Assembly (NCBI GenBank): GCA_027489965.1
Contig: JAIXZA010000137.1
Location: 1 to 64,000, forward strand
DNA from: Verrucomicrobiaceae bacterium
GTDB taxonomy: Bacteria; Verrucomicrobiota; Verrucomicrobiia; Verrucomicrobiales; Verrucomicrobiaceae
Reading direction: 5' to 3'
DNA: 64,000 nucleotides
Part shown: positions 9,254 through 61,455 of the stretch, piece after piece
Layout of the letters: each line of letters starts with the position of its first letter
Position numbering within the stretch: the stretch's first letter is position 1
Notes under the pieces: generated by a model
Told to the model about the DNA's origin: nothing
The model's input: the letters and a program-made list of their open reading frames with translations, nothing else
Database searches by the model: none
Position numbers and translations under genes: made by a program

Positions 9254-9763
9254 GATTTTGGGTGTTGCTTTATTGGATGTGTCAACTTTCTCCGAAAAAA
9301 GACCGTCAGGATTTGCCGCGGGAGCGGTCACGACATCGACGCTCTTGAGTGCAAAACACCGCGCGGCCTTCTTTCCGCCAGCGATCTTCACGCCCTCGCC
9401 TTTGAATGCGGCCGACATCCCGAAACACGTTGGCATCCGCTCGGCTCGTTCGAGCATTTTCGGCGTCTCTTCGTGAGTGGTCAGAAGATGCCAATCACCG
9501 ATCAGCTTTTTCCCAGACAGACGGAAGTTCTCGAGGTAGCCGTTGAGTGCCTCGATCCCGCTCCCGTGATTGAGCTTCACCGGAACTTTTCCTCGTTCTT
9601 TGGCACAACTGAGCATCTGAGTCAGCGTCTCGCCATCGACTTCGAGATCGTGCCCCTCTGCCGTCACGCCTGATGTGATCAACGCGACATCGCGAATCAC
9701 TGCGTTTGCTTTATCGACGTTCCCGCATGAGAACTCGGCGCATTGAAATAAAAGGACATCCAT
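8510..9763 (-). CDS. Prohead protease fused to scaffold
   Basis: 417 residues. The N-terminal half looks like an assemblin-type serine protease: VKLNHGSG supplies a likely catalytic His66, CFGMSAAF a likely Ser117, and SVDVVTAPAANPDGLF is the typical end of the domain. A Glu-rich, coiled-coil scaffold follows, with a Gly/Asp/Ala linker around residues 255-290. An in-frame Met171 (MADENKNQ) could start a scaffold-only product. The start codon lies in a 10-bp hairpin just past a tRNA gene. The protease would cleave scaffold and possibly the motif-bearing proteins upstream. Confidence 0.85.
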   Translation of the reverse strand: MDVLLFQCAEFSCGNVDKANAVIRDVALITSGVTAEGHDLEVDGETLTQMLSCAKERGKVPVKLNHGSGIEALNGYLENFRLSGKKLIGDWHLLTTHEETPKMLERAERMPTCFGMSAAFKGEGVKIAGGKKAARCFALKSVDVVTAPAANPDGLFSEKVDTSNKATPKIMADENKNQTAKEPTLAELMAAVQGLQATIAEQGKVIEALQAGGNEHDQEISDEELEELANLGDEQLAEIGLTREQVLAEAAARGYEVSEGQGEGDGDGNGEGAMAGAGAGASAGGEAGSAAFEALRRDYLNFKARIKSIELAEKEAEEDAFFSALEEKIELAAKEISSLRAENAALKNTVTRFESQTGAVSASKPILFEDKGEQNHKFAALCQKFRAEGKTEGQAIMLAAKQDPAAHREWIQLQAGK

Positions 9764-9780
9764 GCTGATCCATGGATGTC
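9755..9780 (-). promoter_or_regulatory. Hairpin enclosing the protease-scaffold start codon
   Basis: Perfect 10-bp inverted repeat GACATCCATG/CATGGATGTC with a 6-nt loop. The ATG of the protease-scaffold gene lies in the 3' arm on the minus strand. It occupies nearly all of the gap between the tRNA 3' end and the gene, so translation may depend on its opening. Confidence 0.6.
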
Positions 9781-9788
9781 AAAGAAAG

Positions 9789-9865
9789 TGGTGGCGGGAG
9801 TTGGATTTGAACCAACGACCTCAAGGTTATGAATCTTGTGCTCTGCCTGCCTGAGCTATCCCGCG
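9789..9865 (-). tRNA. tRNA-Met (CAT)
   Basis: Complete cloverleaf on the minus strand: acceptor strands CGCGGGA/TCCCGCC, D arm with AGCTCAGGCAGGCAGAGC, anticodon loop TTCATAA (anticodon at 9829-9831), T arm GTTGG-TTCAAAT-CCAAC, and an encoded CCA. The first acceptor pair is C1/C72, unpaired as in initiator tRNAs, but the anticodon stem lacks the three G-C pairs of initiators and carries one A/C mismatch, so it may be an elongator or a tRNA-Ile precursor. It sits inside the late operon between a cargo-like gene and the protease. Confidence 0.9.
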
Positions 9866-9878
9866 ATTTGAAAAGTCA

Positions 9879-10394
9879 CTACACACGCTGGATCGGTTCC
9901 TGTTCAGGAACAATCATCTCGCCGCGTTGCATTTTTGTCAGAATCAACCGACGCCGTTCTTGTTTTCTTGGAAGAACGCTGCCGTAGGCTGCGGCCATCG
10001 TGTTTGGATCCGGCGCACCTTCGTTACCCTGTGGAGCATACTGACCCATGCCATTGCGTGGGCGAGGGTCGGCAAGTTCAATCGACTCCAACTTTGAACA
10101 AAACTTCTTGAGTCGTTCTTTCGTGACGGGCTCAATCGATAGGATCTCGATGGATTTTGAGAACGTCTCTTTCCCATCTCGGTTCTTCGATGAGCTTTCT
10201 GACGCGACTCGATACTTCACCGTGGCTTCTCCGGTTTCTGGAAAATCAATGGGCTTGGGGCGCGAGATGTAGATCGAGGGGTAGTATTTGCTCGATGCAA
10301 CAGATCCAGCTATCGACGGACCACCATAACTCTCTCCGAGATCAAGTTTCTCAGAGAGGGCAATCAGCCGCGATTTATTGCGTAGCGTCAGCAT
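9879..10394 (-). CDS. Repeat-motif structural protein, short member
   Basis: About 171 residues from MLTLRNKSRLIALSEKLDLGE; the track start at 10466 is an upstream extension. The N-terminus carries the recurring basic/hydrophobic motif (RLIALSEKLD) shared with the next two genes upstream. A related KFCSKLESIELADP lies mid-protein (about residue 110), then a Gly/Pro/Asn-rich linker and a basic C-terminus. It lies between polyprotein and protease. Enzymatic function unknown. I infer a virion protein, with the motif acting as a capsid-targeting or cleavage tag. Confidence 0.7.
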   Translation of the reverse strand: MLTLRNKSRLIALSEKLDLGESYGGPSIAGSVASSKYYPSIYISRPKPIDFPETGEATVKYRVASESSSKNRDGKETFSKSIEILSIEPVTKERLKKFCSKLESIELADPRPRNGMGQYAPQGNEGAPDPNTMAAAYGSVLPRKQERRRLILTKMQRGEMIVPEQEPIQRV

Positions 10395-10410
10395 TTTGAA
10401 TCCAAAGCAA

Positions 10411-11166
10411 TCAAACCGGATTGCGACGGAATCCTTTTGCCATTGATGCAGCGGTCGATCGAGCACTTTTGATGTCGGATTCGTACACCGAGATCGCTTC
10501 TCGTTTTCCTGACTCAGGAATCAATTTCCGGGTAGGAGAAACCTTGAATTCTCCATGCATAGTCTTGTTGATTCGAACCGGAGCCATGCGAACCTTTAGC
10601 AACTCTGACGCAGTTCGCGATCCCGAGGAAAGTTCAATGGAGTCCACTTTTTCAGCGAGGAAGATGAGACGCTCGCTCGAATCAAACCGCATCGGCTTCC
10701 GCAGAAGTGCAGCGCCAGCCATTTTGAGAGATTTCCCAAATGAACCGACCCCGCCGACATTGCGGTATGCACCACCGGCTGCATTCATGCCGCCGACAGA
10801 GACGCGCTCCTGAACGCGAGAAGCGCGCTTGATTCGTTTCCCGACGTTTTCCAGACCGTCAGCAACAGCGCCAGATGCTTGCGCTGCGGTGTTTCTGGCT
10901 ACATTCCGGTAAGCCTGAGCAGCCGCTCCTTTTCCGAGGATCTGATCCCCGCCACCGGCCTTCATGATCGCACGGTGGCCGGCATAGCCTGCGCCAACGG
11001 CAGCGGTGGTGCCAACAGCGCCAGCAACGGTTTTGAAGTCACCAGCCCCAGCGGGTTTTCCGTCTTTGGTGTAAAACTTCCCGTCCTCACCGCGATAAAC
11101 GGCGAGTTCAATGGAGTCCACTTTCTCAGCGAGGGAGATCAGACGAATGTGCAGTTTGGTTTTCAT
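10411..11166 (-). CDS. Repeat-motif structural protein with two tags
   Basis: 251 residues from MKTKLHIRLISLAEKVDSIE. The motif occurs at the N-terminus and again near residues 160-180 (RFDSSERLIFLAEKVDSIEL), so the protein looks like two joined modules. Module one has a glycine-rich hydrophobic stretch (VAGAVGTTAAVGAGYAGH). Module two is short and basic with a KLIPESGKREAISVYESD segment. The two copies are also 37/40 identical as DNA, indicating recent internal duplication. Same operon as the polyprotein. Function unknown; probably inside the capsid. Confidence 0.7.
   Translation of the reverse strand: MKTKLHIRLISLAEKVDSIELAVYRGEDGKFYTKDGKPAGAGDFKTVAGAVGTTAAVGAGYAGHRAIMKAGGGDQILGKGAAAQAYRNVARNTAAQASGAVADGLENVGKRIKRASRVQERVSVGGMNAAGGAYRNVGGVGSFGKSLKMAGAALLRKPMRFDSSERLIFLAEKVDSIELSSGSRTASELLKVRMAPVRINKTMHGEFKVSPTRKLIPESGKREAISVYESDIKSARSTAASMAKGFRRNPV
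10632..10671. repeat. Direct repeat copy A encoding the RLIxLAEKVDSIEL tag
   Basis: 40 bp, 37/40 identical to 11106..11145. It encodes the internal tag in the gene at 10411..11166. Confidence 0.85.
11106..11145. repeat. Direct repeat copy B encoding the RLIxLAEKVDSIEL tag
   Basis: 40 bp, 37/40 identical to 10632..10671. It encodes the N-terminal tag of the same gene, just after the start codon. Confidence 0.85.
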
Positions 11167-11221
11167 GAAAATCGTGGTTCTTTGGATTCTGACTGTTCGA
11201 AGGATTCGGCGTGTCAATTAC

Positions 11222-14200
11222 TCACGCCGGTTGAGGAAACGATTTGGGAAGCTTTTTGGGGAACGCCTGAATCACGTTTCCGGCTTTCTTTCTGGCTTCG
11301 GCGCGAGCCATTCGTGTCGCGACCGCCTTTTCTGCTGCCGCGGTGCGATTCAGAACGATTCTCTTAACAGCCCGGGTTTCTCCCATTCGAACACCAGCCG
11401 CCAATGCACCGGCACCGACAAGCGCCGTTGCTGCCGCCCCTGCTCCGATGAGAAGCTTACGCTGGCCGTCTTTCTTTTCATGCCATTCGGCTTGCCTGCG
11501 CATCCTGCGGCGAGAACCTGGCGCAAACACACGGGCCGAACGTCCGCGAGGATCGCGCACATCCCAGCCAGCGTATTCAGCCATCTGGTCCAGTTTGATG
11601 ATCTTGCCTTTGGAAGAAAGACCGAGCGACCCCGCGATTTTGTCCATCGCACGACCCGTTGCGTTCTCAATCTTCTGTCGTCCGAGCCTCACCCGAGCTT
11701 CCGTTTTTTTGACCAGCCGCGCCGTTGGAGTAGTTGGGTTCACCCGAGCATAACGTCGAAGCAAAACGCCTCCTCCAACAGCCCCGGCAATGCTGGCTGT
11801 GGTGACAGCGTTTTGAAACCAACTCTTCTCCCACTCACGCTTCTTTGTGCGTCCTGCAGCGTCTTTCTGCCTTGGAGCTCCGCGAAGTTCATCGAGAGCA
11901 TCGCGAGTCAATCCACCGGTTCGCTGAACGGTCACGCGGGCTTTTTTCGCATCCCGCCATAACGAGTTTGCAAGCTGCGGACTCGAAGCTTTCCACTGCG
12001 ATCCATCTGCGTTCACGTAGGTCATTCCCCGTGCGTATCCTTCGACCGGATCGGCGTATCTTTTCCCGCTCTGCCAACGCGGTTGATCGGAGCGTCCGAG
12101 TTGAATCAGGCGACCTTGCATTGAAAATCTGACCCGCTTTGCAAGCCTCTTGAATGTCGGGAATGTCGTGAGTTGAGCCTTGAGCGATTTCAAAATCCGA
12201 ATGCCCTTGTTCTGGGCACGAACGACGTTTCCAGTCGCGGCCTCCGCTTGCTTTGCGGCCTTGGCTACCCGGTATCCCGCATAGCCAACTCCGGCCCCAG
12301 CGGTCAAAGCGCCGGCACCGATCGCGCGATCACGGTTTTGGCGAGAATCAAATCGGATCGTACGACGTTCTTTGATCGAGAATCGGGTTTTCTTTCCCAT
12401 GTCCTTTCTGAGGTTCCGAATGGAATCCACTTGCTGGCCTTCGTCGGCTCCCTGAGCTGCCCCGACCGCTCCACCGGCAACCGTGCCGATTGCTGCTGTA
12501 ACCGGCAATCCGCCGCGACGAGCTAGTGCTGCGGGACGCCATTGCTTTGCAAGCCCGCGCATCACTCGCTGACCAGCTTTGGTTCGAGAAGCAACAACTC
12601 CGGCTGTCAGACCGGTTGCAGCTCCGACGATGCCGCCGCCAATGGCTGCACGCTTTGTAAATGGAGCTCCTTCATCTTTTCTTGGTTCACCGACAATCCG
12701 AGATCCCACAAGGGCACCACCGCCAACGATTGCTGCTGAAAGCCCAGCCCCGGTTGCGATAGCCTTGCCTGCGCTTTTTAGCGATGTCCCACGCCTGAGT
12801 AACGAAACGCCGCCAAGCAATGCACCAGACGCCGCACCAGACAACGCGGCTCCGACGTAGGGGTTGAGTTGCTTTTTCTCTTTGAACAGAATCACCCGAG
12901 CTTTGCTTTCGCAGTTCCAACGCTTGAGCGCGGCTCCCTTGGGCGTAAGCTTTCCGTCCTTGCTGGTCGGTCCAGAAACCCCGCTCATACGAGCACAGAA
13001 GCTTTTTCGCCGGTTGGCGGCTTTGCTGCCGGGTTTGAGCTTCGACGGATCCTTGGTAACCGGACGTTTCAGGTTGCTTCCGTTCTCACGGTTGTATGCC
13101 TTTCGAGCGCTGTCATTGAGCCCCCCGGTCTTGGCATGGCGCTTTTTGTTGTAGCCGTGGAACGGCTTTTCGAAAGAGATAATCCGTCCAGATGCAGAGA
13201 GCTTGAACTTCCGTTTGACCAGCTTTGCGGCCCCGACCGACGCAACGCCTGCGCCAGCAACGACCGGCAGTGACTCCACTTTTTTGCCCTCACGAGTGCG
13301 TTCTCCGTACGGATCCCTCCCCGACTTCGTTGCCTGACGGATCGCCAACACCCCGCCCGCGCCAGCGGCAGCGCCCGCCGCGGCACGGGTCAGAGTGCGG
13401 CCTCGGCGAGTGATGAGCGCACCCGCGAGAGCTCCAGCGGCACCAGACCGCAAAATGTTTGCATCGCGACGATCAAGATCTTCGTCACGGATCTTCTTTA
13501 CATATCGGTCTCGAGCAACGCGACCGGTGAGCGGAATCCCCGCTTCGTATCCAATCGGACGCTCGAACCGGATCATTCCTTTACTGCGGCTTGAAAACGT
13601 GGTCCGCACCCTGCTTTGAATTTTATGCAATTTTTCAAGAACATTGGGGTTAATTTCTCCAGTCACCGGATCCGATATCACTTTCCCGACGATCTCATCT
13701 TCCATCAGTGTGGCTCCGGCATTGTAGCGAGCTGCGATCCGCGAATACTTGTGCTTTGGATTGAGTTTGTTGGCTAAATACGCGATCGGGCCTCGGCGCG
13801 GAACTTCACGCACAAGAGCCTGCTTTCGATTCAAGATGTAGCGGTTGCCAATTCCCCTGTGAACCTCGACTTCTTCATTTATAGGTCGCTCAAGCTTGAT
13901 GATGCGCCGGCCCTTCACCGCGAGTTGGAATCGAGCGGGAGTGAGGTCCAGCACATTGAGCGACATTGAGACGTTTCCTTTCATGGCCTTGGCGAGATAG
14001 TGGTGACCGTCAACAATCCGGTCGTTTTGGATCAGAATGAACTTGGAGCCCCGACGGGCTTTGAGCTGAACGTGACGACGGCATTCCTTGCAGTCGGCGT
14101 CTTTGACGTTGGCCTTGGCGGTCGAGAGATTGTGCGGATCGGCTTTCGAGATCAGTTCCTTGGCCGTCATGCCATACCACGCGAACTTGGTGTCGGCCTT

Positions 14201-14281
14201 CGCTCCGGTGAATCGCTTCACGGTTTCGCGAACCTCTGCCGGCAGATCTTTCAGTTTTACGTCTTGGATGTAGGCGCTCAT
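11222..14281 (-). CDS. Modular polyprotein with seven recurring tag motifs
   Basis: 1019 residues directly after the portal gene (ATGA overlap). N-terminal ParB/sulfiredoxin-like domain (about 1-118; FILIQNDRIVDGHHYLAKA, then LDLTPARFQ). A tag of the form RFSxxGRxIxL recurs near residues 118-131, 228-241, 358-371, 459-466, 632-644, 718-728 and 886-897. Between tags lie a DUF6321-like domain (about 383-456; AKTGGLNDSARKAYNRENG, ending LKRWNC), glycine-zipper membrane stretches (about 475-610, 652-675 and 825-845), and basic segments. The layout suggests several internal virion or ejected proteins joined in one chain and perhaps cut by the neighbouring protease. No cleavage site is proven. Confidence 0.85.
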   Translation of the reverse strand: MSAYIQDVKLKDLPAEVRETVKRFTGAKADTKFAWYGMTAKELISKADPHNLSTAKANVKDADCKECRRHVQLKARRGSKFILIQNDRIVDGHHYLAKAMKGNVSMSLNVLDLTPARFQLAVKGRRIIKLERPINEEVEVHRGIGNRYILNRKQALVREVPRRGPIAYLANKLNPKHKYSRIAARYNAGATLMEDEIVGKVISDPVTGEINPNVLEKLHKIQSRVRTTFSSRSKGMIRFERPIGYEAGIPLTGRVARDRYVKKIRDEDLDRRDANILRSGAAGALAGALITRRGRTLTRAAAGAAAGAGGVLAIRQATKSGRDPYGERTREGKKVESLPVVAGAGVASVGAAKLVKRKFKLSASGRIISFEKPFHGYNKKRHAKTGGLNDSARKAYNRENGSNLKRPVTKDPSKLKPGSKAANRRKSFCARMSGVSGPTSKDGKLTPKGAALKRWNCESKARVILFKEKKQLNPYVGAALSGAASGALLGGVSLLRRGTSLKSAGKAIATGAGLSAAIVGGGALVGSRIVGEPRKDEGAPFTKRAAIGGGIVGAATGLTAGVVASRTKAGQRVMRGLAKQWRPAALARRGGLPVTAAIGTVAGGAVGAAQGADEGQQVDSIRNLRKDMGKKTRFSIKERRTIRFDSRQNRDRAIGAGALTAGAGVGYAGYRVAKAAKQAEAATGNVVRAQNKGIRILKSLKAQLTTFPTFKRLAKRVRFSMQGRLIQLGRSDQPRWQSGKRYADPVEGYARGMTYVNADGSQWKASSPQLANSLWRDAKKARVTVQRTGGLTRDALDELRGAPRQKDAAGRTKKREWEKSWFQNAVTTASIAGAVGGGVLLRRYARVNPTTPTARLVKKTEARVRLGRQKIENATGRAMDKIAGSLGLSSKGKIIKLDQMAEYAGWDVRDPRGRSARVFAPGSRRRMRRQAEWHEKKDGQRKLLIGAGAAATALVGAGALAAGVRMGETRAVKRIVLNRTAAAEKAVATRMARAEARKKAGNVIQAFPKKLPKSFPQPA

Positions 14282-15999
14282 TTCGATGGTTCTTTCGGTT
14301 GCTGTGCCGCTGCCTTGGCCTGTTTTTGAGCCAGACCGGTTGATTCAGGGATGAGCATCTCCGCTTCTTGTTGGCCGATTCCGTAGATAGCCATCGCGCT
14401 TTCAACCGCGCTGACTCGCTCGATAACGCCTTCGCCGACTTGTGAAATCAAATCCATCAGTGGCTTCAAGTCCTGGGTGTTGTTGATGAGCCCAGGAGGC
14501 GGCGGCTGTGGTGGCGTGTTAGCCGCAGCGAGTTGATCGGATGCCATCGGCCATTGATTGCTCAACATCTCGATTGGCACGTTGTTGGAAGCCGCAGCTT
14601 CTTGGAAGGTCGTCACATCACGGGCTCGCTTACGGGCAACCGTTTCGATGTCTTTTCCGCGCTTCGAAAGAACGTCGGTCATGCTCTCAAGCCCGAGTTG
14701 GATATTCGCGATATCCATCTGACCGGCATAAGTCACATCAGCCGTGATCTGAGATCCGAAGCTCCATTCTCCCGAGACGTAGTTCGGTGTGGCTGGGATG
14801 GATCCCATGGAGATTCCATGTTCGATCACCGCGTTCTTGATCGGATTGAGCATCCGATGCGTCAACAACCCCTGCCAATACTCGAAGGTCCGCTGTGCTT
14901 GCTCAAGCTCAATACGGCTTGTGGCACCGCCCATGATGCTCATGTCGTATCCGAATCCATACGGCAGATCCATGGAGATACAGGCTTCACGGATAAGCAT
15001 CTGGCAGAACGCCATGAACTGACCGCTCGGCCGGGAAGATCCGTTCGCCATGCTGATGTTTTCGCCCTCGCCAAGAACTTGAACACGACCGGGAACAGCT
15101 TCCCACTGCTTACGGCCATCGACGGTTTCGGTATCCCATCCCGAAGATGCCTGATTATTGTAGGGATCTTTGCGGGTGACGAACGCACTCCACATGGACG
15201 CGAACTTGTTGGCTACCTTCTCGAATCCAAAGAGCTCATAGAGATCCCGAACGTGAGGGAGGGCGGTAGCCAGGTAGGTTGTCGGCCGGTATTGGTCCGT
15301 CCTGAAAGGGTCCATCAGGTGCTTGAACACTTCGGGCGAGAACGTTTTCTCGTAGGTGTATTGCGAACTCGTCAGGGAACGCTTGTAAACCCGGTATCCA
15401 AGAACCTCGCCGAAGTCGCCGATTTCGATTCCACGAACCCGGCTGTCCGAGATGTCGGCTTCATCCGGACTTCCAATCCGATCGGCCTCGATAACCTGAA
15501 CCTTGATTTGCCCCTGCACGATCCGCATCAGCGCCCCAACGTCGCCGTCAATCAGCATGGATCGTAGAGACTTCTGGACCAGCTCAAGAAACCGGAATCG
15601 ACCGGTGATGTCGCAACTCTCACACCACTGGTGGAAGTAGTCCTCATACATCTTATCGACATCCTTGTCCCCGGTGTCGGCCTTGTACTCGAGTCGGCCA
15701 ACGACATACTTCGGAATCTTGAGCATGAGCCCTCGGATCAAGCAGATGTCGTTTGCGGCCTGCCGTGCCTCCCACATGAGGCGGATGCCATCTCGGCGGC
15801 TCTGGAAGTTCTCTGGCGATGCATTCCGCTGACGTGATCCCGCCAATGTCCTGTGACCGTTGTTCTTGGCTCCATCGAACGAGAACTCGATGAAGTGTTG
15901 CCGGTTCACAGCACGCTCAAGCGCGAGCTTCGGGCTGACGAATGAAATAATCCGATCGAACCCACGTTCGATTGCCGTGATTTTTGGAGCCTTGTCCAT
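14278..15999 (-). CDS. Portal protein, lambda gpB type
   Basis: 573 residues, the usual length for lambda-family portals. The N-terminal region has SRRDGIRLMWEARQAANDI, matching the conserved early helix of this family. The core shows LRSMLIDGDVGALMRI and VQVIEADRIGSPDE, and the stem region has SRIELEQAQRTFEYWQ. The C-terminus is Pro/Gln-rich. It follows the small joining protein gene with start and stop sharing a base (TGATG-type) and precedes the polyprotein. It forms the dodecameric DNA entry vertex. Confidence 0.93.
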   Translation of the reverse strand: MDKAPKITAIERGFDRIISFVSPKLALERAVNRQHFIEFSFDGAKNNGHRTLAGSRQRNASPENFQSRRDGIRLMWEARQAANDICLIRGLMLKIPKYVVGRLEYKADTGDKDVDKMYEDYFHQWCESCDITGRFRFLELVQKSLRSMLIDGDVGALMRIVQGQIKVQVIEADRIGSPDEADISDSRVRGIEIGDFGEVLGYRVYKRSLTSSQYTYEKTFSPEVFKHLMDPFRTDQYRPTTYLATALPHVRDLYELFGFEKVANKFASMWSAFVTRKDPYNNQASSGWDTETVDGRKQWEAVPGRVQVLGEGENISMANGSSRPSGQFMAFCQMLIREACISMDLPYGFGYDMSIMGGATSRIELEQAQRTFEYWQGLLTHRMLNPIKNAVIEHGISMGSIPATPNYVSGEWSFGSQITADVTYAGQMDIANIQLGLESMTDVLSKRGKDIETVARKRARDVTTFQEAAASNNVPIEMLSNQWPMASDQLAAANTPPQPPPPGLINNTQDLKPLMDLISQVGEGVIERVSAVESAMAIYGIGQQEAEMLIPESTGLAQKQAKAAAQQPKEPSK

Positions 16000-29446: not shown

Positions 29447-29935
29447 ATGGCAGGCTATAATGGCTTCTCGAAAAGCAACAACGCGGTCTCAGCGGAAGCC
29501 AACGGACGATTCCCTGCAAGCAAGTGCGCAAAGATCCTCGGTGTTCCGGTCGAATTCATTCGAGCACAAGGCTCATGCGAATGGCACCACACGTCGAAGC
29601 ATTTCAACACCACACCTTACTACGATCTTGAAAGCATCCGCGAACACCTTGAAACGTCCGAAGGACAGCAACAGCTTTCCGAAATCAAAGCGGATCTGGC
29701 TTCAAAAAAGACAGCCACCGCCACCATTTACGAAAACGCCGACGTGGCGTGGATTGAATGGAGCGGGACCAGAAATCACCCTCGCGCAACCAACTACACG
29801 GCGACCGGAGCGACCGTGACTGACGGGGGCGGCAAGTTTGTCGAAGTGCGGTTGCCAAACGGAAAAACCTTCCGCAAAGGCCGCGACACGCGAGGCTTTA
29901 CCGTTTCCGTAAACGGTGAGAGGGTCATCGGGTGA
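29447..29935 (+). CDS. Conserved phage protein, unknown
   Basis: 162 residues: MAGYNGFSKSNNAVSAEANGRFPASKCAKILGV, then SCEWHHTSKHFNTTPYYDLESI. This opening is a pattern I recall from many uncharacterised phage genes. The C-terminus is a beta domain (KFVEVRLPNGKTFRKGRDTRGFTV). Function unknown. Overlaps the next GTG start. Confidence 0.75.
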   Translation: MAGYNGFSKSNNAVSAEANGRFPASKCAKILGVPVEFIRAQGSCEWHHTSKHFNTTPYYDLESIREHLETSEGQQQLSEIKADLASKKTATATIYENADVAWIEWSGTRNHPRATNYTATGATVTDGGGKFVEVRLPNGKTFRKGRDTRGFTVSVNGERVIG

Positions 29936-30189
29936 CTACCGACCTTTCTTCAATGCCAAAGTTTCTGATTGCCGACGATGGCAATGATCGCGACTTCGTA
30001 ATTCACTGCCACTGGCCGCGCTTCATCATGGAAATTGACGAAGAAGGAGTTGGAGTCGTTCGCATCTGGCTAGACCCAGAAACCGAAATTATCCGCCTAG
30101 AACAAAAATCCGGCCGCGAGCCCGCGGTTTTAATCGCCCGGCTCATGAAAGAAGCGGGCGAGTTTTTCATGGATCAAATCGAGGAATGA
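29932..30189 (+). CDS. Small protein, unknown (GTG start)
   Basis: 85 residues, acidic, alpha/beta (VVRIWLDPETEIIRLEQKSG, then a C-terminal helix KEAGEFFMDQIEE). The GTG overlaps the previous stop. No family recognised. Confidence 0.6.
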   Translation: MTTDLSSMPKFLIADDGNDRDFVIHCHWPRFIMEIDEEGVGVVRIWLDPETEIIRLEQKSGREPAVLIARLMKEAGEFFMDQIEE

Positions 30190-30211
30190 CGATCAAGCGG
30201 CCGAACCAACT

Positions 30212-30640
30212 ATGCTCATCCAGCACATCACCCTATCCACTGGTAACAGCGTCACGCACCGGTTGGATACCATCGATCCAAAAGCCATCGATACTTGCCG
30301 CCTTCTGTTACCCACAAGAGGAGGGGAAGTCCCAGGTTTCCCAAACTGGAAGGTAAACATACCCGGCGAGCAAATGTTCACGATCTACCATCAGTCGCAG
30401 CCGATCGTCACTTGCGGCATCGGGAAAGGTGACGATCCAGTCTGGCACATGCTCTGGAAAGCTCAGTCTGACTTTGCGCAAGCCATTTCAGGTCTCCAAG
30501 TCAAAGCCAGCATCCCACCCAAAAGGCTATGGCTTGCCGTCCTCGTTTGCCCCGCACTGGCCCTCGTCCCGCAACAACATTTCTCATGGCTCGCAGACTT
30601 CGAGCGCACCCTCGCAGCCGCTCTTCTCATCCCCAAATAG
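30212..30640 (+). CDS. Conserved phage or plasmid protein, unknown
   Basis: 142 residues (MLIQHITLSTGNSVTHRLDTI...). It resembles an uncharacterised family with QHI..STG near the start and MFTIYHQSQPIVTCGIG in the middle. A hydrophobic KRLWLAVLVCPALALVP stretch near residue 105 may be buried rather than membrane-spanning. Followed by a terminator. Confidence 0.65.
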   Translation: MLIQHITLSTGNSVTHRLDTIDPKAIDTCRLLLPTRGGEVPGFPNWKVNIPGEQMFTIYHQSQPIVTCGIGKGDDPVWHMLWKAQSDFAQAISGLQVKASIPPKRLWLAVLVCPALALVPQQHFSWLADFERTLAAALLIPK

Positions 30641-30661
30641 ATGGAATTTCAATCCGGCACC

Positions 30662-30697
30662 AACCCCGTTTGGCCTAACCGCCGAACGGGGTTTTTT
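30662..30697 (+). terminator. Intrinsic terminator
   Basis: AACCCCGTT/AACGGGGTT stem with inner GGC/GCC pairs and TTTTTT, 22 bp after the 30212 gene. A second 9-bp hairpin GCGAGCAGG/CCTGCTCGC lies at 30703-30729 without a T-run. Confidence 0.88.
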
Positions 30698-30816
30698 GTC
30701 AGGCGAGCAGGCAAACCGAACCTGCTCGCATTCATTCCCATACATACAGAAAGCGATCCCGGCTTTCTACCTCACAACCCACCGGACACGGAGTGAGAGA
30801 CTCCGAGTATGAAACC

Positions 30817-31284
30817 ATGCAAACGCAAATCACTGTTCAAGACGGCAAGATCCTTGTCTCTGGACCTTACTCCGAGACCAACAACGCCCGCTACCGCGCC
30901 CACGGCGGCAAGTTCGCAGGCGGCAACTGGGTGCTCCCCGACAACGACGCCACCCGCGCCACCATCGCCGAGCTTTTCGGCACCAAGAGCGAGGAAGTTG
31001 AAGTCCTCATCAGCGCCAGCGCGCTGTCCGACGGACAGATCGTGCAGATCGGCGGCTACGTCCTTGCCCAACGCCGAGGACGCGACTACCGCGTGCAGAT
31101 GCCCGATGGCGTCGCCCTCGACGCTGGGAACTTCCGCGAATCAGGAGGATCCGTAAAGAATCCTCGCGTCGGCATCGACGATGACATGGTCTTCCGGCTC
31201 CGCTGCCGCAAGTCCTTCGCAGAAGCTCACGGTCTCACCATCGCACCGACCGCTGCCGACTCGCCGCCAAGCATCGAAATCTAG
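30817..31284 (+). CDS. HARP-like phage protein
   Basis: About 155 residues from MQTQITVQDGKILVSGPYSE; the track start at 30793 is eight codons upstream. SETNNARYRAHGGKFAGGNWVLPDNDATRATIAELFG resembles the HARP-type module that contacts structured nucleic acid, and it is common in phages as a small stand-alone protein. The C-terminal half is a beta domain (DGQIVQIGGYVLAQRRG). Own transcription unit between two terminators, so probably abundant. Confidence 0.65.
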   Translation: MQTQITVQDGKILVSGPYSETNNARYRAHGGKFAGGNWVLPDNDATRATIAELFGTKSEEVEVLISASALSDGQIVQIGGYVLAQRRGRDYRVQMPDGVALDAGNFRESGGSVKNPRVGIDDDMVFRLRCRKSFAEAHGLTIAPTAADSPPSIEI

Positions 31285-31343: not shown

Positions 31344-32918
31344 ATGACACAACGCAAACAGTCCCTTCATCTCGACAACCTGCAAGAAGTTCTGAACGCC
31401 AGCAAAAGCAGTCTGCGGAAAGGAACTCAGCAATTCGAAACTCCGTTCAGTGTCGCCGAAGCACTTTCCACCCTGCTGACCAAGCGGCGATCTATGATCT
31501 TTGATCCGCAGTGCGGTCACGGCAACTTGATCCATGGATGCGTAAACGAAAGCACCCGGATAGTTTTGGGATCCGACATCGATCCGACATCGATGCTTCC
31601 TCGCAAGATCGAGAAGCGACACTGCATCGCAGATTTCACGTTGCTCTTTGAGATCCTGGCCGAGATTCAATTTCAGTGTGATCTGATCGTCGCAAATCCA
31701 CCATTCTCCCTGAATTGGGACATGGATCGATTTACTTCGATTCCGAGCGTTCTGCAAAGTTTGCCGGCCCAATCATTCGGTTCCATCAGTCGCAAAAAAC
31801 CAAAGATTGATTCCACGCTGGCGACCTATCTCGCCTGTCTCCACATGCTCACACCATGTGGCGAAGGGATGATGATCTGCAATCACGCTACGGCGAAGCG
31901 ATTGATCGCGCCTCACTTATCATCGTCACACATCTGGTATTGGCTGGTTCTGCCAAATTTCTTTCCCGGCACCGTCCAAGAAATGGAAATCGCCGTCCTA
32001 TATTTTGCGAAAGACCATCGTCCGCAACCGGGATCGGCCATTGAGCCGATTGCGCTCGCAAGCGCCCATCCCGAGGCAATCAGGCAGCATCTCAGCCCTC
32101 TGACTTCGCGCAAACTTTGCCGAGGCCACCGGATGGAAGTTCAAGGATACTCCGATTTGCGATTTCAACGTCAGGCCGACAGGTTTGAAGCTGCATCTCA
32201 AGAATTCACCCGACGCCACAACGCCGAGAAGAGCGCACACAAGGGATGGAATCTTTACCTTCGGGAAGGAAAGATCGTCGCCTACCTTACTCCCTTCCAG
32301 AGCCTCTCGGGAACGATCTCTGCCGAAAAAGTCGATGCCTTGCAGCAATGCCATGGCAAGACTCCGTTCGAAATGGCGGTCATGCGCGACACCCGCGAAA
32401 CGCTGCTTTCGACCGTTCACAGCGATATCTGGACAGTTCACCCCGAGCTGATCGCGGCCGTCGATCATGCGGTGGAAGCCTATCACCGTTCCCGTTGTCC
32501 ATTCATCCGGCTGTCGCCAGTGCAACGCCTCGGTTTCTTAGACGAACACGACTCTATCGAATGCCAGTCTGGTTTGATCGATGGGTTTGTGTCTGGCAAG
32601 AAATACGAGTTGAAAAGCCTCACCATCAACAACAAGAAAACCGAGTATCGCCCGAGACCAACAGACGAAGACCCGGATGCCGAGGAAGAAATCTTGGTCA
32701 GCGGAGATGAACTGCTCTTTCTGATCCGAGATGAAGAGGAATACCTCCACGCATTTTCGCAGCATGAGCTCGATCAAAAAGAGCACCCTTACTGCTTCTA
32801 CCACACTCTGGAAGAGCTCATCGACACATTTGTTGTGCCCGATGTTCCAGACGTTGCAGACCGAGACCCTGAACTTTACAATGAATTCCGCGGGCGCTTG
32901 CTCGCACTCCAAACATGA
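31344..32918 (+). CDS. DNA N6-adenine methyltransferase-like protein
   Basis: 524 residues. ETPFSVAEALSTL and MIFDPQCGHGNLI form the SAM-binding motif (about 30-60), and CDLIVANPPFSLNW carries the NPPF catalytic motif of amino-methyltransferases (about 112-125). The long C-terminal part (about 270-524) is not recognised and could bind DNA. In phages this type often lies beside a Snf2-type helicase, and one follows here after two genes. Modification of phage DNA against host restriction is the likely role. Confidence 0.8.
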   Translation: MTQRKQSLHLDNLQEVLNASKSSLRKGTQQFETPFSVAEALSTLLTKRRSMIFDPQCGHGNLIHGCVNESTRIVLGSDIDPTSMLPRKIEKRHCIADFTLLFEILAEIQFQCDLIVANPPFSLNWDMDRFTSIPSVLQSLPAQSFGSISRKKPKIDSTLATYLACLHMLTPCGEGMMICNHATAKRLIAPHLSSSHIWYWLVLPNFFPGTVQEMEIAVLYFAKDHRPQPGSAIEPIALASAHPEAIRQHLSPLTSRKLCRGHRMEVQGYSDLRFQRQADRFEAASQEFTRRHNAEKSAHKGWNLYLREGKIVAYLTPFQSLSGTISAEKVDALQQCHGKTPFEMAVMRDTRETLLSTVHSDIWTVHPELIAAVDHAVEAYHRSRCPFIRLSPVQRLGFLDEHDSIECQSGLIDGFVSGKKYELKSLTINNKKTEYRPRPTDEDPDAEEEILVSGDELLFLIRDEEEYLHAFSQHELDQKEHPYCFYHTLEELIDTFVVPDVPDVADRDPELYNEFRGRLLALQT

Positions 32919-33319
32919 ACTTTTCACCCTACATAAAACTTTATCGCAAAAACAACCTGTGGTGCTTCGATTACCCATCCATGGGCATCATCGAAGAACC
33001 TTTCGTTGAAGGCATTGACGACATCATTGATGCAGTCGCCGCCCGCAATCTCGGAGTGCGGAAAAACCATATTCCAAGCGAACTCATCCTCCGATGGTCA
33101 ACAGACGAAAACGACCCCGCTCCAAACAAGCTGCTTCATCTGCATTCAGAAGAGCGGTTCGGCCAACAGTGGAACCGCTACAAGCTCCACTCCATGAATA
33201 TCTCCGCACTGGAAGGAAACCTGTGCCCGATGCTTCTGGTCTTTTTCAAGAATGCCCCAGACGTGATCTACTTTGACATCTACCAAGTCACGCCCGAATT
33301 CTTGGCTCTCTGCGCATAG
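32915..33319 (+). CDS. DUF6717-like protein
   Basis: 134 residues. KNNLWCFDYPSMGIIEEPFVEGIDDIIDAV matches a conserved phage pattern (WxFDD..GL..EPFV.GID) that I associate with DUF6717. Function unknown. It overlaps the methylase stop by 4 bp and its 3' end overlaps the convergent minus-strand cargo-like gene by 31 bp. Confidence 0.75.
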   Translation: MNFSPYIKLYRKNNLWCFDYPSMGIIEEPFVEGIDDIIDAVAARNLGVRKNHIPSELILRWSTDENDPAPNKLLHLHSEERFGQQWNRYKLHSMNISALEGNLCPMLLVFFKNAPDVIYFDIYQVTPEFLALCA

Positions 33320-33950
33320 GCACAGCATCGTGAGTTAAAATCGCTCGCTGGATTGCTCGATCAAGCGGCGTCGAATACCGTGCCACTTTCTGATCAATTT
33401 TTTGAGTATCGATGTTGTAGCCCATGCGCTCGTAATGCCGGACCAAATCTTTTGTGGCAATCCCTCCTGGGCGTTTCGAAAACCCCGCCGCGCTGCCCCC
33501 AAAATTACGCGCTTCTGTTGTGCTGATAATCCCGCGACGGTCAAGATGCGGCAAAAATGTTTTGCTGATTAAAGCCGCTGATCGGCCCCGCTCAGATCCT
33601 TTAGATAGCGGACCAGTGGTTGGTGACCAAATTGCTTCGACATGATTTTTTTTCTTACCGATTCGCCGGTAAGTCAACTGTGCATGAGATTTCGTCATGT
33701 CCGATTGCGTGATTGCAGCAACGCGATCTCGACCTTTGTTTGGTCCGGATTTGAAGACTCCTTTCGGAAGATTCGCGTGTCGAGCAATCGTTACCGTTCG
33801 CTGCCTTTTTGGATGAAGCGGATCAAACTTCTGTCGTGTCACAATCAGCCCGTTCTTCAAGCGAATCGCTAACTCGACCAAATCTGGACCGTTGCCGCCG
33901 AAAGCCGCATCTACCTTTGCCGCAAACTCAACCAATCGACCTTTTCGCAT
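33288..33950 (-). CDS. Minus-strand gene with the structural tag motif
   Basis: 220 residues from MRKGRLVEFAAKVDAAFGG. The N-terminus matches the recurring tag of the capsid-region polyprotein family (RLIxLAEKVD). The rest is basic, with RQRTVTIARHANLPKGVFKSG and a C-terminal region with DLVRHYERMGYNID. It is encoded on the late strand in the middle of the early block, between the DUF6717 gene and the helicase, overlapping one and nearly abutting the other. I infer a late-expressed, capsid-packaged protein, possibly an injected effector. Function unknown. Confidence 0.7.
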   Translation of the reverse strand: MRKGRLVEFAAKVDAAFGGNGPDLVELAIRLKNGLIVTRQKFDPLHPKRQRTVTIARHANLPKGVFKSGPNKGRDRVAAITQSDMTKSHAQLTYRRIGKKKNHVEAIWSPTTGPLSKGSERGRSAALISKTFLPHLDRRGIISTTEARNFGGSAAGFSKRPGGIATKDLVRHYERMGYNIDTQKIDQKVARYSTPLDRAIQRAILTHDAVPMRREPRIRA

Positions 33951-33973
33951 CTCACTTTCACGATATCAAATCT

Positions 33974-35764
33974 ATGCCTACTCTACAATGGAAAAGCTTC
34001 CAGACCGAAGACCTCGCCCGTGCTGCAATGCACGATTCCGCCATCCTATCATGGGAACAAGGACTCGGGAAATCCCTTGCTGCAATCGCGTGGCCTCTGA
34101 TCAAAGGCGCTCGACGGATTCTGATCGTCGCCCCAGGTGGATTGCATGAGCAACTTCGTTCCACGTCGATCGCGTTCTTCGGCCAATGGCTGACTACGAT
34201 CGAGACGCAATCCGACTTCTACGCTTACAAGCTGCATCTCCCGCATCCCGAGGATCACCCGACGCGGTTCTTCCTGATCACATACCAAGCGCTAGGAATG
34301 AACGGCGCTGATGAATGGGAGGATGAAGTAGTGAATGGTGATCGGTTGGTGGATAAGTCGATCCGAAAGCGCCGGAAACAATGGCTCAGATCGCACGGTA
34401 TCGCCGAAGAAATCGAAATGCATTATGCCGTTGGCTCAGAGCGCGGCGGCATCACATGCGTCGTCACCCCGACAATCGCCCGGTTGATCCGGATCCACAA
34501 TTCTTTCGACTGCGTGGTGATCGATGAAGGTGTCCGACTGCAGGCGAACGATTCTTGCGTTGCCGAGGGCGTCCGGATGCTGGATCCAAAGTTTCGGATG
34601 GTCCTGACCGGCACGCCGATCAAGAATCGTCTGGAATCCGTGTTTTGGCTGTGCTGGTGGGCTTCTGGTGGGTTCAGCCAACCGACCGAACGCTGGCCGT
34701 ATCCTGGCACATCCGAGGCTCGCGAACAGTTCGCCAATCAGCATCTCATTCACGAAAAGTTCATCACTCGCGAGCAAGAAGACAAAGCTCTCGCGCGTAT
34801 GACAAACCGACGACCACGAAAGATCGAAAAACGCACGTCCAGAATCTCGAATGTGCATCGCCTGTGGAAGCTGTTTGCGCCGATCATAATCCGCCGCCGC
34901 AAGACAGACTGCGGGGAGGATATCGTTCCGAAAACGATGCGTCCGATCTACGTGCCGCCCGGGACCGAGCAACAACACGTCTATTCGTTTCATCTCGACT
35001 TCCCACCTGTGCAGTCGCAAGCAGGGGTGGAAATTAAACGCCGAACGCAAATTGGGATGCAGCTCAATATCCTGCGGCGAGTTGCGCTCTGCCCCCACGA
35101 CCCGGGCCTGAACGACATCATCACGGATGCTACAACAGGAACGCCTCAATGCAGCGAGTATGATCTCACGCCGAAGATGGCGGCCGTAATTTCGCTGGTG
35201 ATGGACCTAATCGACTCCGGAGAACAGGTTCTCGTTGGCTCGCCGTTCCGTGCATTCTCTTCGGCCCTGCATCGCCGTCTGGTCAAAGACTTGGGGGTGA
35301 AATCCCTACTTCTGGATGGAAGCACCGATCCCAAACGCCGTGGGTCTCTCGCCGAAGATTTCAAGCGGAAGAAGTATCCGGTCATGGTCGCCGGCCTCAA
35401 AGCCATGAGTGAAGGTTACAGTTTCTCCAACTGTTCAAACCTGATCTTGCCATCCTACTCATGGGCGATGGATGAAAACGAACAATTCATTCACCGTGTC
35501 TGGCGGCTGGATAGCCCGAAACCCGTGACAATCTATCCTGTGGCTGTCGAAAACACCATCGACGAACACATGCTCACGGTTTTCGGCGAAAAGAGCGATA
35601 GCGCCCAACTGGCGCTCGACGGAGCTCTTTTCGCCGATCACGTAGAGGAAATGAACCCTGCCAAATTGCTTCGCATGGCACAAAATTCATTCCGTCAAAA
35701 TTACGATACTGTGGATGAGGTTGATCTTATTCCGACCGTTGCTCGTCGGCTTTCAGTGGCTTAA
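33974..35764 (+). CDS. Snf2/DEAD-type helicase
   Basis: About 596 residues from MPTLQWKSFQTEDLARAA; the track start at 33809 overlaps the divergent gene. Motif I is WEQGLGKSLAA (about 26-36), motif II CVVIDEGVRL (DEGV in place of DEAH), motif III LTGTPIKNR, and the second RecA lobe has VLVGSPFRAFSSALHRRL, an LLLDGSTDPKRRG strand and IHRVWRLDSPKPV near the C-terminus. A dsDNA translocase or replication/recombination helicase. It forms an early-region pair with the upstream methylase. Confidence 0.88.
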   Translation: MPTLQWKSFQTEDLARAAMHDSAILSWEQGLGKSLAAIAWPLIKGARRILIVAPGGLHEQLRSTSIAFFGQWLTTIETQSDFYAYKLHLPHPEDHPTRFFLITYQALGMNGADEWEDEVVNGDRLVDKSIRKRRKQWLRSHGIAEEIEMHYAVGSERGGITCVVTPTIARLIRIHNSFDCVVIDEGVRLQANDSCVAEGVRMLDPKFRMVLTGTPIKNRLESVFWLCWWASGGFSQPTERWPYPGTSEAREQFANQHLIHEKFITREQEDKALARMTNRRPRKIEKRTSRISNVHRLWKLFAPIIIRRRKTDCGEDIVPKTMRPIYVPPGTEQQHVYSFHLDFPPVQSQAGVEIKRRTQIGMQLNILRRVALCPHDPGLNDIITDATTGTPQCSEYDLTPKMAAVISLVMDLIDSGEQVLVGSPFRAFSSALHRRLVKDLGVKSLLLDGSTDPKRRGSLAEDFKRKKYPVMVAGLKAMSEGYSFSNCSNLILPSYSWAMDENEQFIHRVWRLDSPKPVTIYPVAVENTIDEHMLTVFGEKSDSAQLALDGALFADHVEEMNPAKLLRMAQNSFRQNYDTVDEVDLIPTVARRLSVA

Positions 35765-41984: not shown

Positions 41985-42320
41985 ATGGCCGACTTCACCC
42001 CAAAAGCCTCAGAAGACGATATCCGCAAACGGTGGGACGCAGATGCCCCGATCAACACAGCCGAGCTCGCGATTATCATGAAGGTCAATCGCAGCACGGT
42101 AAGCCAGTGGAATCGCCGCGGAATGCCTCGGGTCGGAAAGCTGATCCGCAAATCCACCTTCAATCGGTGGTGGGCAAAAGAGTCGCGATCTACACATTCG
42201 CATACTTCTGAACGTCCTCGCAGCCGATCCGCTGATAAATCCGGTGAACAGCCTTCGAAGAGTGGTTCACCAGCGCCATTGCCGCCGCAAGCGGCACGCC
42301 TTCTCGAGCGAGCCTCGTGA
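41985..42320 (+). CDS. Excisionase-like HTH protein
   Basis: 111 residues from MADFTPKASEDDIRKRWDAD. INTAELAIIMKVNRSTVSQWNRRGMPRVGKLIRKSTFNRWW is a winged or MerR/Xis-like helix-turn-helix (about 22-65). The C-terminal third (Ser/Arg/Pro-rich) overlaps the convergent integrase gene by 131 bp and may be an accidental extension. Position next to integrase suits a recombination directionality factor. Confidence 0.65.
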   Translation: MADFTPKASEDDIRKRWDADAPINTAELAIIMKVNRSTVSQWNRRGMPRVGKLIRKSTFNRWWAKESRSTHSHTSERPRSRSADKSGEQPSKSGSPAPLPPQAARLLERAS

Positions 42321-43212
42321 TATACGTCACCCGAAGCCCATGGAAAACAAGATGAGGAACGCCGGCACGCTTGAAAAAGTTCTGGAAGCACCTGGACGGT
42401 TGAAACGGGAAGTCATGCGAATACTCGCGCCCTGTCAGCGGCTTCAATATCGGAATCAGGATGTCCGGAAGCGGGCGCGTGAATGCCCGGGTCTTCCCAC
42501 CCTTGGGCCGCGGAATCGTGATCCGCTTACGCTCAAAATCGACGTGGCGCATCGCCAGCCTGGTTTCTGTGAGCCTGAGCCCTGTGTGAAGCGAGATCAT
42601 GAACGAGATATACATCCAATCGTTTCTCGGATCCTTCCGTCGTTCGGATTCCAACAGCTTTTTGCATCGCTCGATCTCGGACGGAAGAAACTCCTGCCGT
42701 TCCTCGGTTTCTTCACGGGCGATCCCGAGATGCTGAATCGGGTTGACCTGAATTTCACCCCGAAGAGCCGCGTGCCTCATCACCAGACTCAGAGTTTTCA
42801 GCTCTTGGAGAGCCGTGTTTCGACCAACTGATTTCCCGTTATGTGCCTTCGGACGCATTCTCCACTTCACATACTGCGCCCCGTGTGCAAATCTCACATC
42901 TGCTGAACAATGAATTCCCTCGACTGTAAAGAAGTGCCGCAAGTGCTTCCAGTGAAGCCTGTATGCCTGCAAGGTGCGCGGAGACTGGCAGTGATCTGCC
43001 AGAAACTCTTCCACCCAATCGAATCCGCCTCGGATCTTTGCCGCGGCATCTCCCTTTTCCTTCAACGTCCACTTCGCGGCGATCAGCTCCGCAGAAGCCG
43101 TCTGGACCTCATCGTCAACCAAGAGTTTTGTGCTCTCGCGAATCAACGGACCATCCGGAGTTTCCCGGTAGGTAATCCACCAAAAGCGACCGCGTTTCAT
43201 CAGGAATGCCAT
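42190..43212 (-). CDS. int: Tyrosine integrase
   Basis: 340 residues from MAFLMKRGRFWWITYRETPDG; the track start at 43368 only translates the attP region (RGSESNRR is a tRNA 3' end read backwards). An AP2-like arm domain comes first, then a SAM-like core-binding domain (about 65-150), then the catalytic domain with Arg213 (TGLRLTETRLA), His291 and Arg294 (FHGLRVTYIT), His317 (LVNHSSK) and nucleophile Tyr326 (HRIYQRIG). It catalyses integration at a tRNA gene, probably through the attP 100 bp upstream. Confidence 0.93.
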   Translation of the reverse strand: MAFLMKRGRFWWITYRETPDGPLIRESTKLLVDDEVQTASAELIAAKWTLKEKGDAAAKIRGGFDWVEEFLADHCQSPRTLQAYRLHWKHLRHFFTVEGIHCSADVRFAHGAQYVKWRMRPKAHNGKSVGRNTALQELKTLSLVMRHAALRGEIQVNPIQHLGIAREETEERQEFLPSEIERCKKLLESERRKDPRNDWMYISFMISLHTGLRLTETRLAMRHVDFERKRITIPRPKGGKTRAFTRPLPDILIPILKPLTGREYSHDFPFQPSRCFQNFFKRAGVPHLVFHGLRVTYITRLAREGVPLAAAMALVNHSSKAVHRIYQRIGCEDVQKYANV

Positions 43213-43315
43213 TCCGAAAATGATTGTGAGTTTGTGAGTTCCAAGCAAGGAAAGAACTCCGCAGAAACCCCCATTTTCTCTGTATTTCGACTTGCAGGAC
43301 ACACACTTACACGCG

Positions 43316-43356
43316 GTCCTCTCTATGCGTCGGTTCGATTCCGACCCTCGCCTCTC
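43316..43356. other. attP: attP candidate: tRNA 3'-end mimic
   Basis: GTCGG-TTCGATT-CCGAC (43329-43345) is a perfect tRNA T arm, followed by CCTCGCCT as an acceptor 3' strand, with no matching D or anticodon arm upstream. Lying about 115 bp before the integrase start, it is the expected attP core of a phage that integrates into a tRNA 3' end. The tRNA identity cannot be fixed from this half. Confidence 0.85.
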
Positions 43357-43409
43357 TCTGTTATTCACTCAAGATTGTGTGTTGAGTGTGCGTTTGGAGG
43401 GATGTCCCG

Positions 43410-57116: not shown

Positions 57117-58895
57117 TCACGTCCCCAGCAAGCCAGTGATCGTCGCGGCCACGACCTGCATCTGCTCGCAGTCTGATGCGTGATCATTGTCCGGACGGCG
57201 GTTGTAACGCTCCGTGATCATGCTATTGGTTCGGCTTTCAATGCGCTGGCGTTCATCCCATGCAGTGACCTGCAGTTGGTATTCGATTGACGTTCCCTGT
57301 TCGATACCTGGTTGGAACTTCGGTAGCTGCCAATCCCCCATCTGTCCCGACATAAACATCCCCAATCGATTGATTGCAGACGGCTTTGACCACAGATAAA
57401 GAGGGATCAGCGGCACACGACCCTGATTCTCCGTTCCGATGGCTGGATCCACCATGCTTTTTTGGAAGATCATGCGTTGACCATCGTTGATGAAGTCCCG
57501 TTTATCGTCTCCCCTGAATGCTTTCCATCGGACGCCTGAGCGTAGAACTTGCTGGTAAACCTCGGCAGTCTTGTGAGCTGAGTCGATGATTACGTTGTCG
57601 TCGCTGATGCTGAACTCCTGTTGTAGTTGGATCATTTCCTCCCACGACCAGACTTTACGGAAAAAAAGCCAGCGAGAACGCGCTCCGGCCGCCCATGCTC
57701 TGCCAAGAGCCCAAAGGTGAAATCCGCCTTTGCTCTGCACGTCCACGCTCAGGAATCGACGCCGTTCTTCTGGAAACGGATCCGTCACGATGTATGGGAA
57801 CATTCGTGGTTTGAGCAGCTTTTGGTCGGAGTTGTAAAAAATCCGATCAGACCAGCTCTTACCGCGGGTTTCATTCCAATGATCTTTGAGCTTCGCGAGA
57901 TCTCCGAGCTTCATTGCCTTTTTCGCTTCAAGAAACTCACGGACCTGCATCGACCAGCTCGTCCACCATGGGAGAAGAGCACACCACCAGTAGGAGCGCA
58001 CGTCCTTGGCGGCTTTCTCGTTCTGGGGCTTCCAATAGGCGTTTCGTGAGATGTATTTCCGATCGGCCGGCACGTCGAAATACTCGCTGCCGCACTTCTC
58101 GCATTTGAACCGGATCGTCTTTTCCAGCTCCGTATAGTCGTAGGCACCGTCTGGACGTGTGATCGTGTTGGTGTCCCATTTCAGACCGCCAGCGTCGTCA
58201 GGCTCCATCCAATCGATCAGCATCTCATGCTGACAATCAGAGTTGCGGCACTTGCAGAACGGGTGATTCTGATCTCCCAGCATGTAGGACATGTCCAGAG
58301 CGTCATTCTCAAGATCAGGCGTCGAGATGATCACCTTCTTGTAGTTGTGCGGGTAGGAACGCACGCGCTTGGACACCATTTCCAGAGCTCCCTTGGGATA
58401 GGAACGGACCTCATCGAGAAACAAATATCGATACGGTGTCGATTGCAGCGCCGACTTCTGCTCGGCACCGGCAATCACGAGCGGAGCACCTGGGAAATAG
58501 ATTTCAAGCTGGGTGTTTCCGCTTTTGCTCTTGGGAATTTTCTCCGCGACTTTCTCGCACTTTTGAAGCTGTTCCCGCAGCCGGGTCTTCATCAGCTTCT
58601 TGGCTTCCTTCTCAGAGAATGTCAGCCAAAGCGTAGGGCCGGGATCTTCGGCGATCACCCAACACAGCAAGACCATAATCGTCAGGGTCTTTGCTGACTG
58701 AGCGGAGCATTTAATGGTGATCTCTCGAATAGAAGGATTCGCAAAATCCTCCATGATCTGACGCAAAAACCGCGCTTCCTCAGAACTCCATTTTGATCCG
58801 GCACTCGAGAGCGCAACCGTGACTTCTTTTTCTCCCCACTTCCAAGGCTCTAATTCTTGAGGAGGTCTGACAACGCCACAGAGACGTTCTGCCAA
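57117..58895 (-). CDS. Terminase large subunit, lambda gpA type
   Basis: 592 residues from TTG (no ATG fits); overlaps the small subunit by 46 bp. ATPase region: adenine-binding PWKWGEKEVTVALS, Walker A-like IKCSAQSAKT (about 61-70), Walker B YLFLDEV (about 157-163). A CKCRNSDCQHEM/CEKCGSEY zinc-like insert (about 220-290) is typical of the GpA family. Nuclease part has FLSVDVQSKGGFHLWALG (about 388). It cuts and packages DNA; the gpA type suggests cos ends. Confidence 0.92.
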   Translation of the reverse strand: MAERLCGVVRPPQELEPWKWGEKEVTVALSSAGSKWSSEEARFLRQIMEDFANPSIREITIKCSAQSAKTLTIMVLLCWVIAEDPGPTLWLTFSEKEAKKLMKTRLREQLQKCEKVAEKIPKSKSGNTQLEIYFPGAPLVIAGAEQKSALQSTPYRYLFLDEVRSYPKGALEMVSKRVRSYPHNYKKVIISTPDLENDALDMSYMLGDQNHPFCKCRNSDCQHEMLIDWMEPDDAGGLKWDTNTITRPDGAYDYTELEKTIRFKCEKCGSEYFDVPADRKYISRNAYWKPQNEKAAKDVRSYWWCALLPWWTSWSMQVREFLEAKKAMKLGDLAKLKDHWNETRGKSWSDRIFYNSDQKLLKPRMFPYIVTDPFPEERRRFLSVDVQSKGGFHLWALGRAWAAGARSRWLFFRKVWSWEEMIQLQQEFSISDDNVIIDSAHKTAEVYQQVLRSGVRWKAFRGDDKRDFINDGQRMIFQKSMVDPAIGTENQGRVPLIPLYLWSKPSAINRLGMFMSGQMGDWQLPKFQPGIEQGTSIEYQLQVTAWDERQRIESRTNSMITERYNRRPDNDHASDCEQMQVVAATITGLLGT

Positions 58896-61443: not shown

Positions 61444-61455
61444 GGTGGCGGGCAA

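Follow-up and report, generated by a model that had tools for sequence, protein, structure and literature searches.

The protein encoded by P0001 (33288-33950, minus strand; 220 aa) is probably made late in infection and carried in the phage head as dispensable cargo, directed there by a short N-terminal tag in a manner resembling the internal proteins of T4 but with a tag of its own. The evidence comes from comparative genomics, which strongly supports P0001 as a putative tagged, late-class cargo gene. A preliminary description of this DNA had taken P0001 to be a late-expressed protein packaged into the head; the tag statistics, the strand bias, the start element and the recurrence of lone genes in six phages uphold the tagged, late-class cargo part of that reading, and from these we infer the packaging.

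The window, i.e., the whole 64,000-nucleotide stretch that was analysed, is the first part (bases 1-64000) of a contig of 69,398 bases that belongs to a 6.5-Mb bacterial assembly. With an overlap of 119 bases between its two ends, the contig probably represents an entire phage genome, circular and 69,279 bp long. The phage, whose host order is probably Verrucomicrobiales, is temperate; a circular genome of this size with an integrase gene might be an extrachromosomal prophage or a co-binned virion genome. Its genes fall into a minus-strand run from ~57 kb through zero to 18.9 kb and a plus-strand run from 19 to 57 kb, termed late and early, respectively, on the grounds of gene content and strand rather than transcripts. 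The major capsid protein (MCP; 6870-7832), a lambda-type portal (14278-15999) and a gpA-type terminase (57117-58895) are all encoded on the minus strand, as is a matrixin-like (M10) HExxHxxGxxH protein (60907-61455) that lies near the terminase amid late genes and has no tag score. P0001 is situated in the plus-strand arm, where the only other minus-strand gene of at least 150 aa encodes a tyrosine integrase (42190-43368). Its neighbours, all on the plus strand, are an N6-adenine methyltransferase-like gene (31344-32918), a DUF6717 gene (32915-33319) that is convergent with P0001 and whose 3′ end P0001 overlaps by 32 bp, and a divergent SNF2-family helicase gene (33974-35764) whose start codon is separated from that of P0001 by 23 bp. 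The previously noted position of P0001 on the late strand amid early neighbours is thus confirmed.

The P0001 reading frame is intact, extending from an ATG start over exactly 33288-33950 on the minus strand, and its product begins MRKGRLVEFAAKVDAAFGGNGPDLVELAIRLKNG. Stop codons break five of the six frames across the gene, leaving the annotated frame as the sole open one. By codon usage, too, this frame outscores the other five, yet at 0.07-0.09 bits/codon, compared with about 0.19-0.43 in reference genes, the codon usage of P0001 is atypical. That P0001 is a real gene is shown by a homologue with 37% identity in a related phage, G402.

The tag has a consensus of approximately RLxELA-K and takes the form RLVEFAAKVD in P0001, where residues 1-16 (MRKGRLVEFAAKVDAA; 33903-33950, minus) constitute the first copy. 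A second tag-like stretch at residues 23-36 (DLVELAIRLKNGLI; 33843-33884, minus) lines up with RLSEFAIKLRNGLL, the tag carried by the homologue in G402, and the P0001 tag looks doubled, RLVEFAAKVD being followed by a putative second copy, DLVELAIRLKNGL. The motif was first trained on three head-region genes only (11222-14281, 10411-11217 and 9879-10466), with P0001 left out. In a width-14 search for 10 copies the tag was the second-best motif, exceeded only by a Gly/Ala-rich one, and the resulting matrix gave residues 1-14 of P0001 a score of 15.9 bits, the highest among 99 other genes, the next reaching 10.6. With 12 copies at the same width the tag was again the best motif apart from the Gly/Ala-rich one; with 8 copies the motifs were recovered in shifted register, and the P0001 tag window did not stand out. 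When the same interval of ten related phages (including that of the window) was searched, the tag once more emerged as the top motif, RLREFSAK. Under this clade-wide motif P0001 scored 18.0 bits, first of the 97 genes in the contig, a value that none of 20,000 shuffles of its N-terminus reached. The resemblance between the P0001 N-terminus and the capsid-region tag, first noticed by inspection of the sequence, thus holds in both scans. Across 25 contigs or loci the tag was found in 68 of 1111 late-strand genes but only 3 of 752 early-strand genes (Fisher p = 1.5e-12, a value that is only indicative, since related phages were counted as if independent and the motif-training genes were among those counted); the same late-strand bias is seen in the rows listed without the training genes. 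An unsupervised motif search of the whole genome returned other motifs only, largely of low complexity, and the amphipathic-helix character of the tag proved inconsistent from copy to copy.

In the head region, tags are found in proteins of diverse size. The largest is a 1019-aa polyprotein encoded in the portal-to-protease interval (11222-14281, minus), which has Gly/Ala-rich stretches and repeated tag copies, with sites learnt at residues 122, 362, 458, 720 and 889. It also contains a DUF6321 domain (residues 383-455, E = 1.4e-14), which several functionally uncharacterised phage protein families match as well. The adjacent gene (10411-11217, minus; probable start MKTK at 11166) encodes two tags, RLISLAEKVDSIELA and RLIFLAEKVDSIELS, and that at 9879-10466 (minus; probable start at 10394) encodes RLIALSEKLD and RLKKFCSKLESIELA. 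Beyond it lie a tRNA-Met gene (anticodon cat; 9789-9865, minus) and a gene for a putative prohead protease fused to a coiled-coil scaffold (8510-9763, minus), the protease being assigned from conserved NH and SAAF motifs and from position rather than from a family match. In several relatives the scaffold part of this protease holds tag-like stretches.

Related phages, about two dozen IMG/VR contigs, were sampled by capsid-protein searches with the MCP as query; among cultured phages, capsid-protein matches did not exceed about 23%. Eight lone late-strand genes were found in the early arms of seven phages, namely that of the window, G402, G401 (two genes), G097, G099, L055 and L056. All eight are tagged near the start, seven scoring above all 640 early genes and that of G097 above all but one. 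The seven lone genes outside the window, from six related phages, occupy intervals that match or adjoin that of P0001. In sister phages this interval is bordered on one side by homologues of the SNF2-type helicase and on the other by homologues of the C-terminal part of the methyltransferase-like protein, and it is between these that the lone genes of G097, G099 and L056 are located, like P0001. The lone tagged gene of L055 directly adjoins the methyltransferase homologue on the far side of the latter, and DUF6717 homologues flank those of G401 and G402, which come after them as in the window. In G402, the homologue of P0001 has the same tag, the same strand and a convergent DUF6717 neighbour. 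No evident lone gene is present in the corresponding interval of G096 or G101.

A further feature that links lone genes to the late class is found upstream of their start codons. Throughout the clade, late-strand start codons show a peak of TTGAC 20-23 nt upstream that is almost absent from early ones; counts of TTGAC-N15-18-ATG are 72/107/73/36 on the late strand versus 10/21/10/10 on the early strand. The consensus of the element, derived from 217 sites in 25 contigs and loci (the window, G096-G411, L055 and L056), is GTTGAC, about 12 free bases, GGG(T/C) and ATG, and examples in the window precede the minus-strand genes at 2066, 5654 and 16247. The lone genes of the relatives have TTGAC upstream, starting about 20-21 nt before the ATG. 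Directly before the P0001 ATG is TTGATATCGTGAAAGTGAG (33951-33969, minus), an imperfect version with a weaker TTGAT at 19 nt, and TTGAT also precedes the tagged head-region protein starting at 10394. The position of GTTGAC is unfit for a sigma-70 promoter, and the element may act in late transcription, as a promoter, or in translation; a hairpin within it was tested for and showed a weak tendency at most.

Behind the tag, at least three body families with no similarity detected between them can be distinguished among the lone proteins: that of the window, a zincin-like body with HEYGH common to the lone genes of G097, G099 and L056, and a third small one, formed by L055 and G401 31373-31864 and weakly supported as a pair. 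The P0001 body has one significant homologue, that of G402 (37% identity, E = 3.6e-21), which surfaced only once relatives had been sampled through the capsid protein; P0001 alone as query found no homologue in IMG/VR, INPHARED, the genome contigs or 96 related genomes. Searches of Pfam, PHROGs, NCBIfam and INPHARED gave no significant match to the P0001 body, nor did Pfam match the G402 homologue. Two weak bacterial-genome matches to a two-row profile were rejected as chance, and G401 29708-30934, considered by eye as a remote relative of P0001, scored no better against the profile than shuffles. The order of predicted strands and helices in the P0001 body is vaguely similar to that of GNAT acetyltransferases, but P0001 lacks a significant GNAT profile match, whether in Pfam or NCBIfam. 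GNATs do occur among the fold matches of one structure model, at E values of 0.3 or worse, and were not used as evidence since the P0001 models are of low confidence (pLDDT 35 and 40, the matches being those of the latter). HExxH motifs are found in tagged head-region proteins of G097, G101, G103 and G105, and a GNAT-like module in those of G101 and G100; the G101 protein (8636-11170) has an RFRGMGLA motif and a Pfam E value of 0.013, below the curated cut-off. Zincin-like HExxH and GNAT-like modules are thus present in tagged head-region proteins, and lone genes and head polyproteins contain like kinds of module. The proposal that P0001 is an injected effector or a moron keeps the standing of a conjecture, its body having no detectable relation to any family searched. 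Its acquisition with the tag already attached, also proposed, would fit the exchange of bodies behind a kept tag as one possible direction of transfer.

From the tag, the strand restriction, the recurrence, the dissimilar bodies and the homologue, all obtained computationally, we infer a possible course of events that covers timing, packaging, cleavage, injection, target and body activity. P0001 would be made late in infection, and its N-terminal tag would dock on the scaffold or inner shell during procapsid formation, such that the protein is enclosed before DNA is packaged; docking on the scaffold is suggested by the tag-like stretches in the scaffold part of the protease of several relatives. 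The prohead protease may clip P0001 near the tag. The body would then enter the next host along with the DNA and be active as infection begins, most likely to counter a host defence, a target guessed from precedent, or to modify a host protein. In the genome, the slot would retain the tag and strand while bodies are exchanged. Targeting is the simplest account of the tag, given that one short N-terminal sequence is common to head-region proteins and to dissimilar lone proteins of the late strand.

Other roles could be envisaged for the tag, namely as protease site, spacer or scaffold-like coiled coil. If it marked where the head protease cuts, or spaced the modules of polyproteins, P0001 would be cleaved there for maturation without being targeted, as might be suggested by the tag copies between modules of head polyproteins and by RLKKFCSKLESIELA, which in the 9879-10466 protein immediately precedes DPRPRN, the stretch where sister-phage proteins begin. 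The LxE[LF][AS] core of the tag, which we take to be reminiscent of gp21-type sites, also counts towards this explanation. The stand-alone genes, however, have their copy at the extreme N-terminus, where cutting alone serves little, and targeting and processing can coexist, as in the T4 leader, so that processing in place of targeting is considered unlikely. Also improbable is that P0001 is a lysogenic-conversion gene (moron) expressed from the prophage under its own promoter, with a tag that reflects an origin in the head-gene module rather than packaging. Its orientation opposite to its neighbours, its codon usage and the integrase gene of the phage would suit such a gene, but the tag is kept while bodies change among eight lone genes in seven phages, the late-gene start element precedes the other lone genes, and a search for sigma-70-type promoters found none for P0001.

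The tag-like stretches in the scaffold part of the protease would be compatible with a role of P0001 in head structure or assembly, as a scaffold-like protein or a component of an internal core, its gene having moved out of the head cluster. Against this, bodies are dissimilar between phages and some relatives (G096 and G101) have no evident gene in the interval, features that suit an accessory cargo better than an essential part and make a structural role very unlikely. The motif is short (12-14 residues), and a chance resemblance in an unrelated antisense gene might be envisaged; given that P0001 ranks top in two separately trained scans, that no shuffle in 20,000 matches it and that tagged lone genes recur in related phages, this is scarcely credible. 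A tag-directed head cargo consequently remains the preferred reading of P0001. The wider proposal, that this clade of uncultured phages uses one tag as a general head-loading signal, both in polyproteins and in an exchangeable early-arm slot, and so achieves plug-in delivery of diverse proteins, stands at about even odds.

The closest parallel in design is provided by the Ip proteins of T4, which block type IV restriction enzymes and have only an N-terminal packaging leader in common (PMC12373910; PMC9026906); residues 4 and 7 of the leader matter for targeting, and residues 8 and 10 for processing (PMC9026906). In Ip1-Ip3 of T4 and the T-even phages, as with the putative leader of the P0001 group, a short N-terminal leader is carried by otherwise unrelated accessory proteins whose bodies vary between related phages, and the variable, non-homologous bodies behind a conserved leader recur here in at least three families. 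The RLxELA-K tag looks unrelated to the T4 leader when compared by eye, and the host, the phage type (here with a lambda-type portal and gpA-type terminase) and the genome plan differ. In addition, the tag, here a putative packaging signal, is repeated inside large head polyproteins. DarB and the other Dar head proteins of P1, which have an N-terminal packaging stretch and an antirestriction cargo, likewise resemble the design proposed for P0001. The first 30 residues of DarB are enough for packaging, and BLAST found no consensus among the Dar N-termini (PMC9024508), whereas in the present phages many proteins can be seen to have a motif in common. Should the tag indeed target proteins to the head, the design of T4 and P1 would be known from an unrelated lineage as well, and the tag would provide a packaging peptide open to testing. 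It would then also be a simple means of recognising, by sequence, the proteins that this clade delivers into cells, the majority of them without a recognised function.

Polyvalent proteins, as outlined in the available part of their description (Iyer et al., 2017; PMC5512222), are multidomain proteins with metallopeptidase, GNAT and ART domains that are proposed to be packaged and injected. Compared with that outline, the tagged head polyproteins described here are similar in plan, although the same part of the account describes no packaging tag shared between modules. P0001, a small single-body protein of 220 aa with no recognisable domain, fits less well than the head polyproteins of its relatives. 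Several of these large tagged proteins seem to consist of consecutive modules (ART-like, zincin-like HExxH, GNAT-like and LRAT-like by eye) with tag copies between them, as in L042:6114-8351, L031:8636-11170, L037:1431-3257 and L015:2825-7570 (plus strand).
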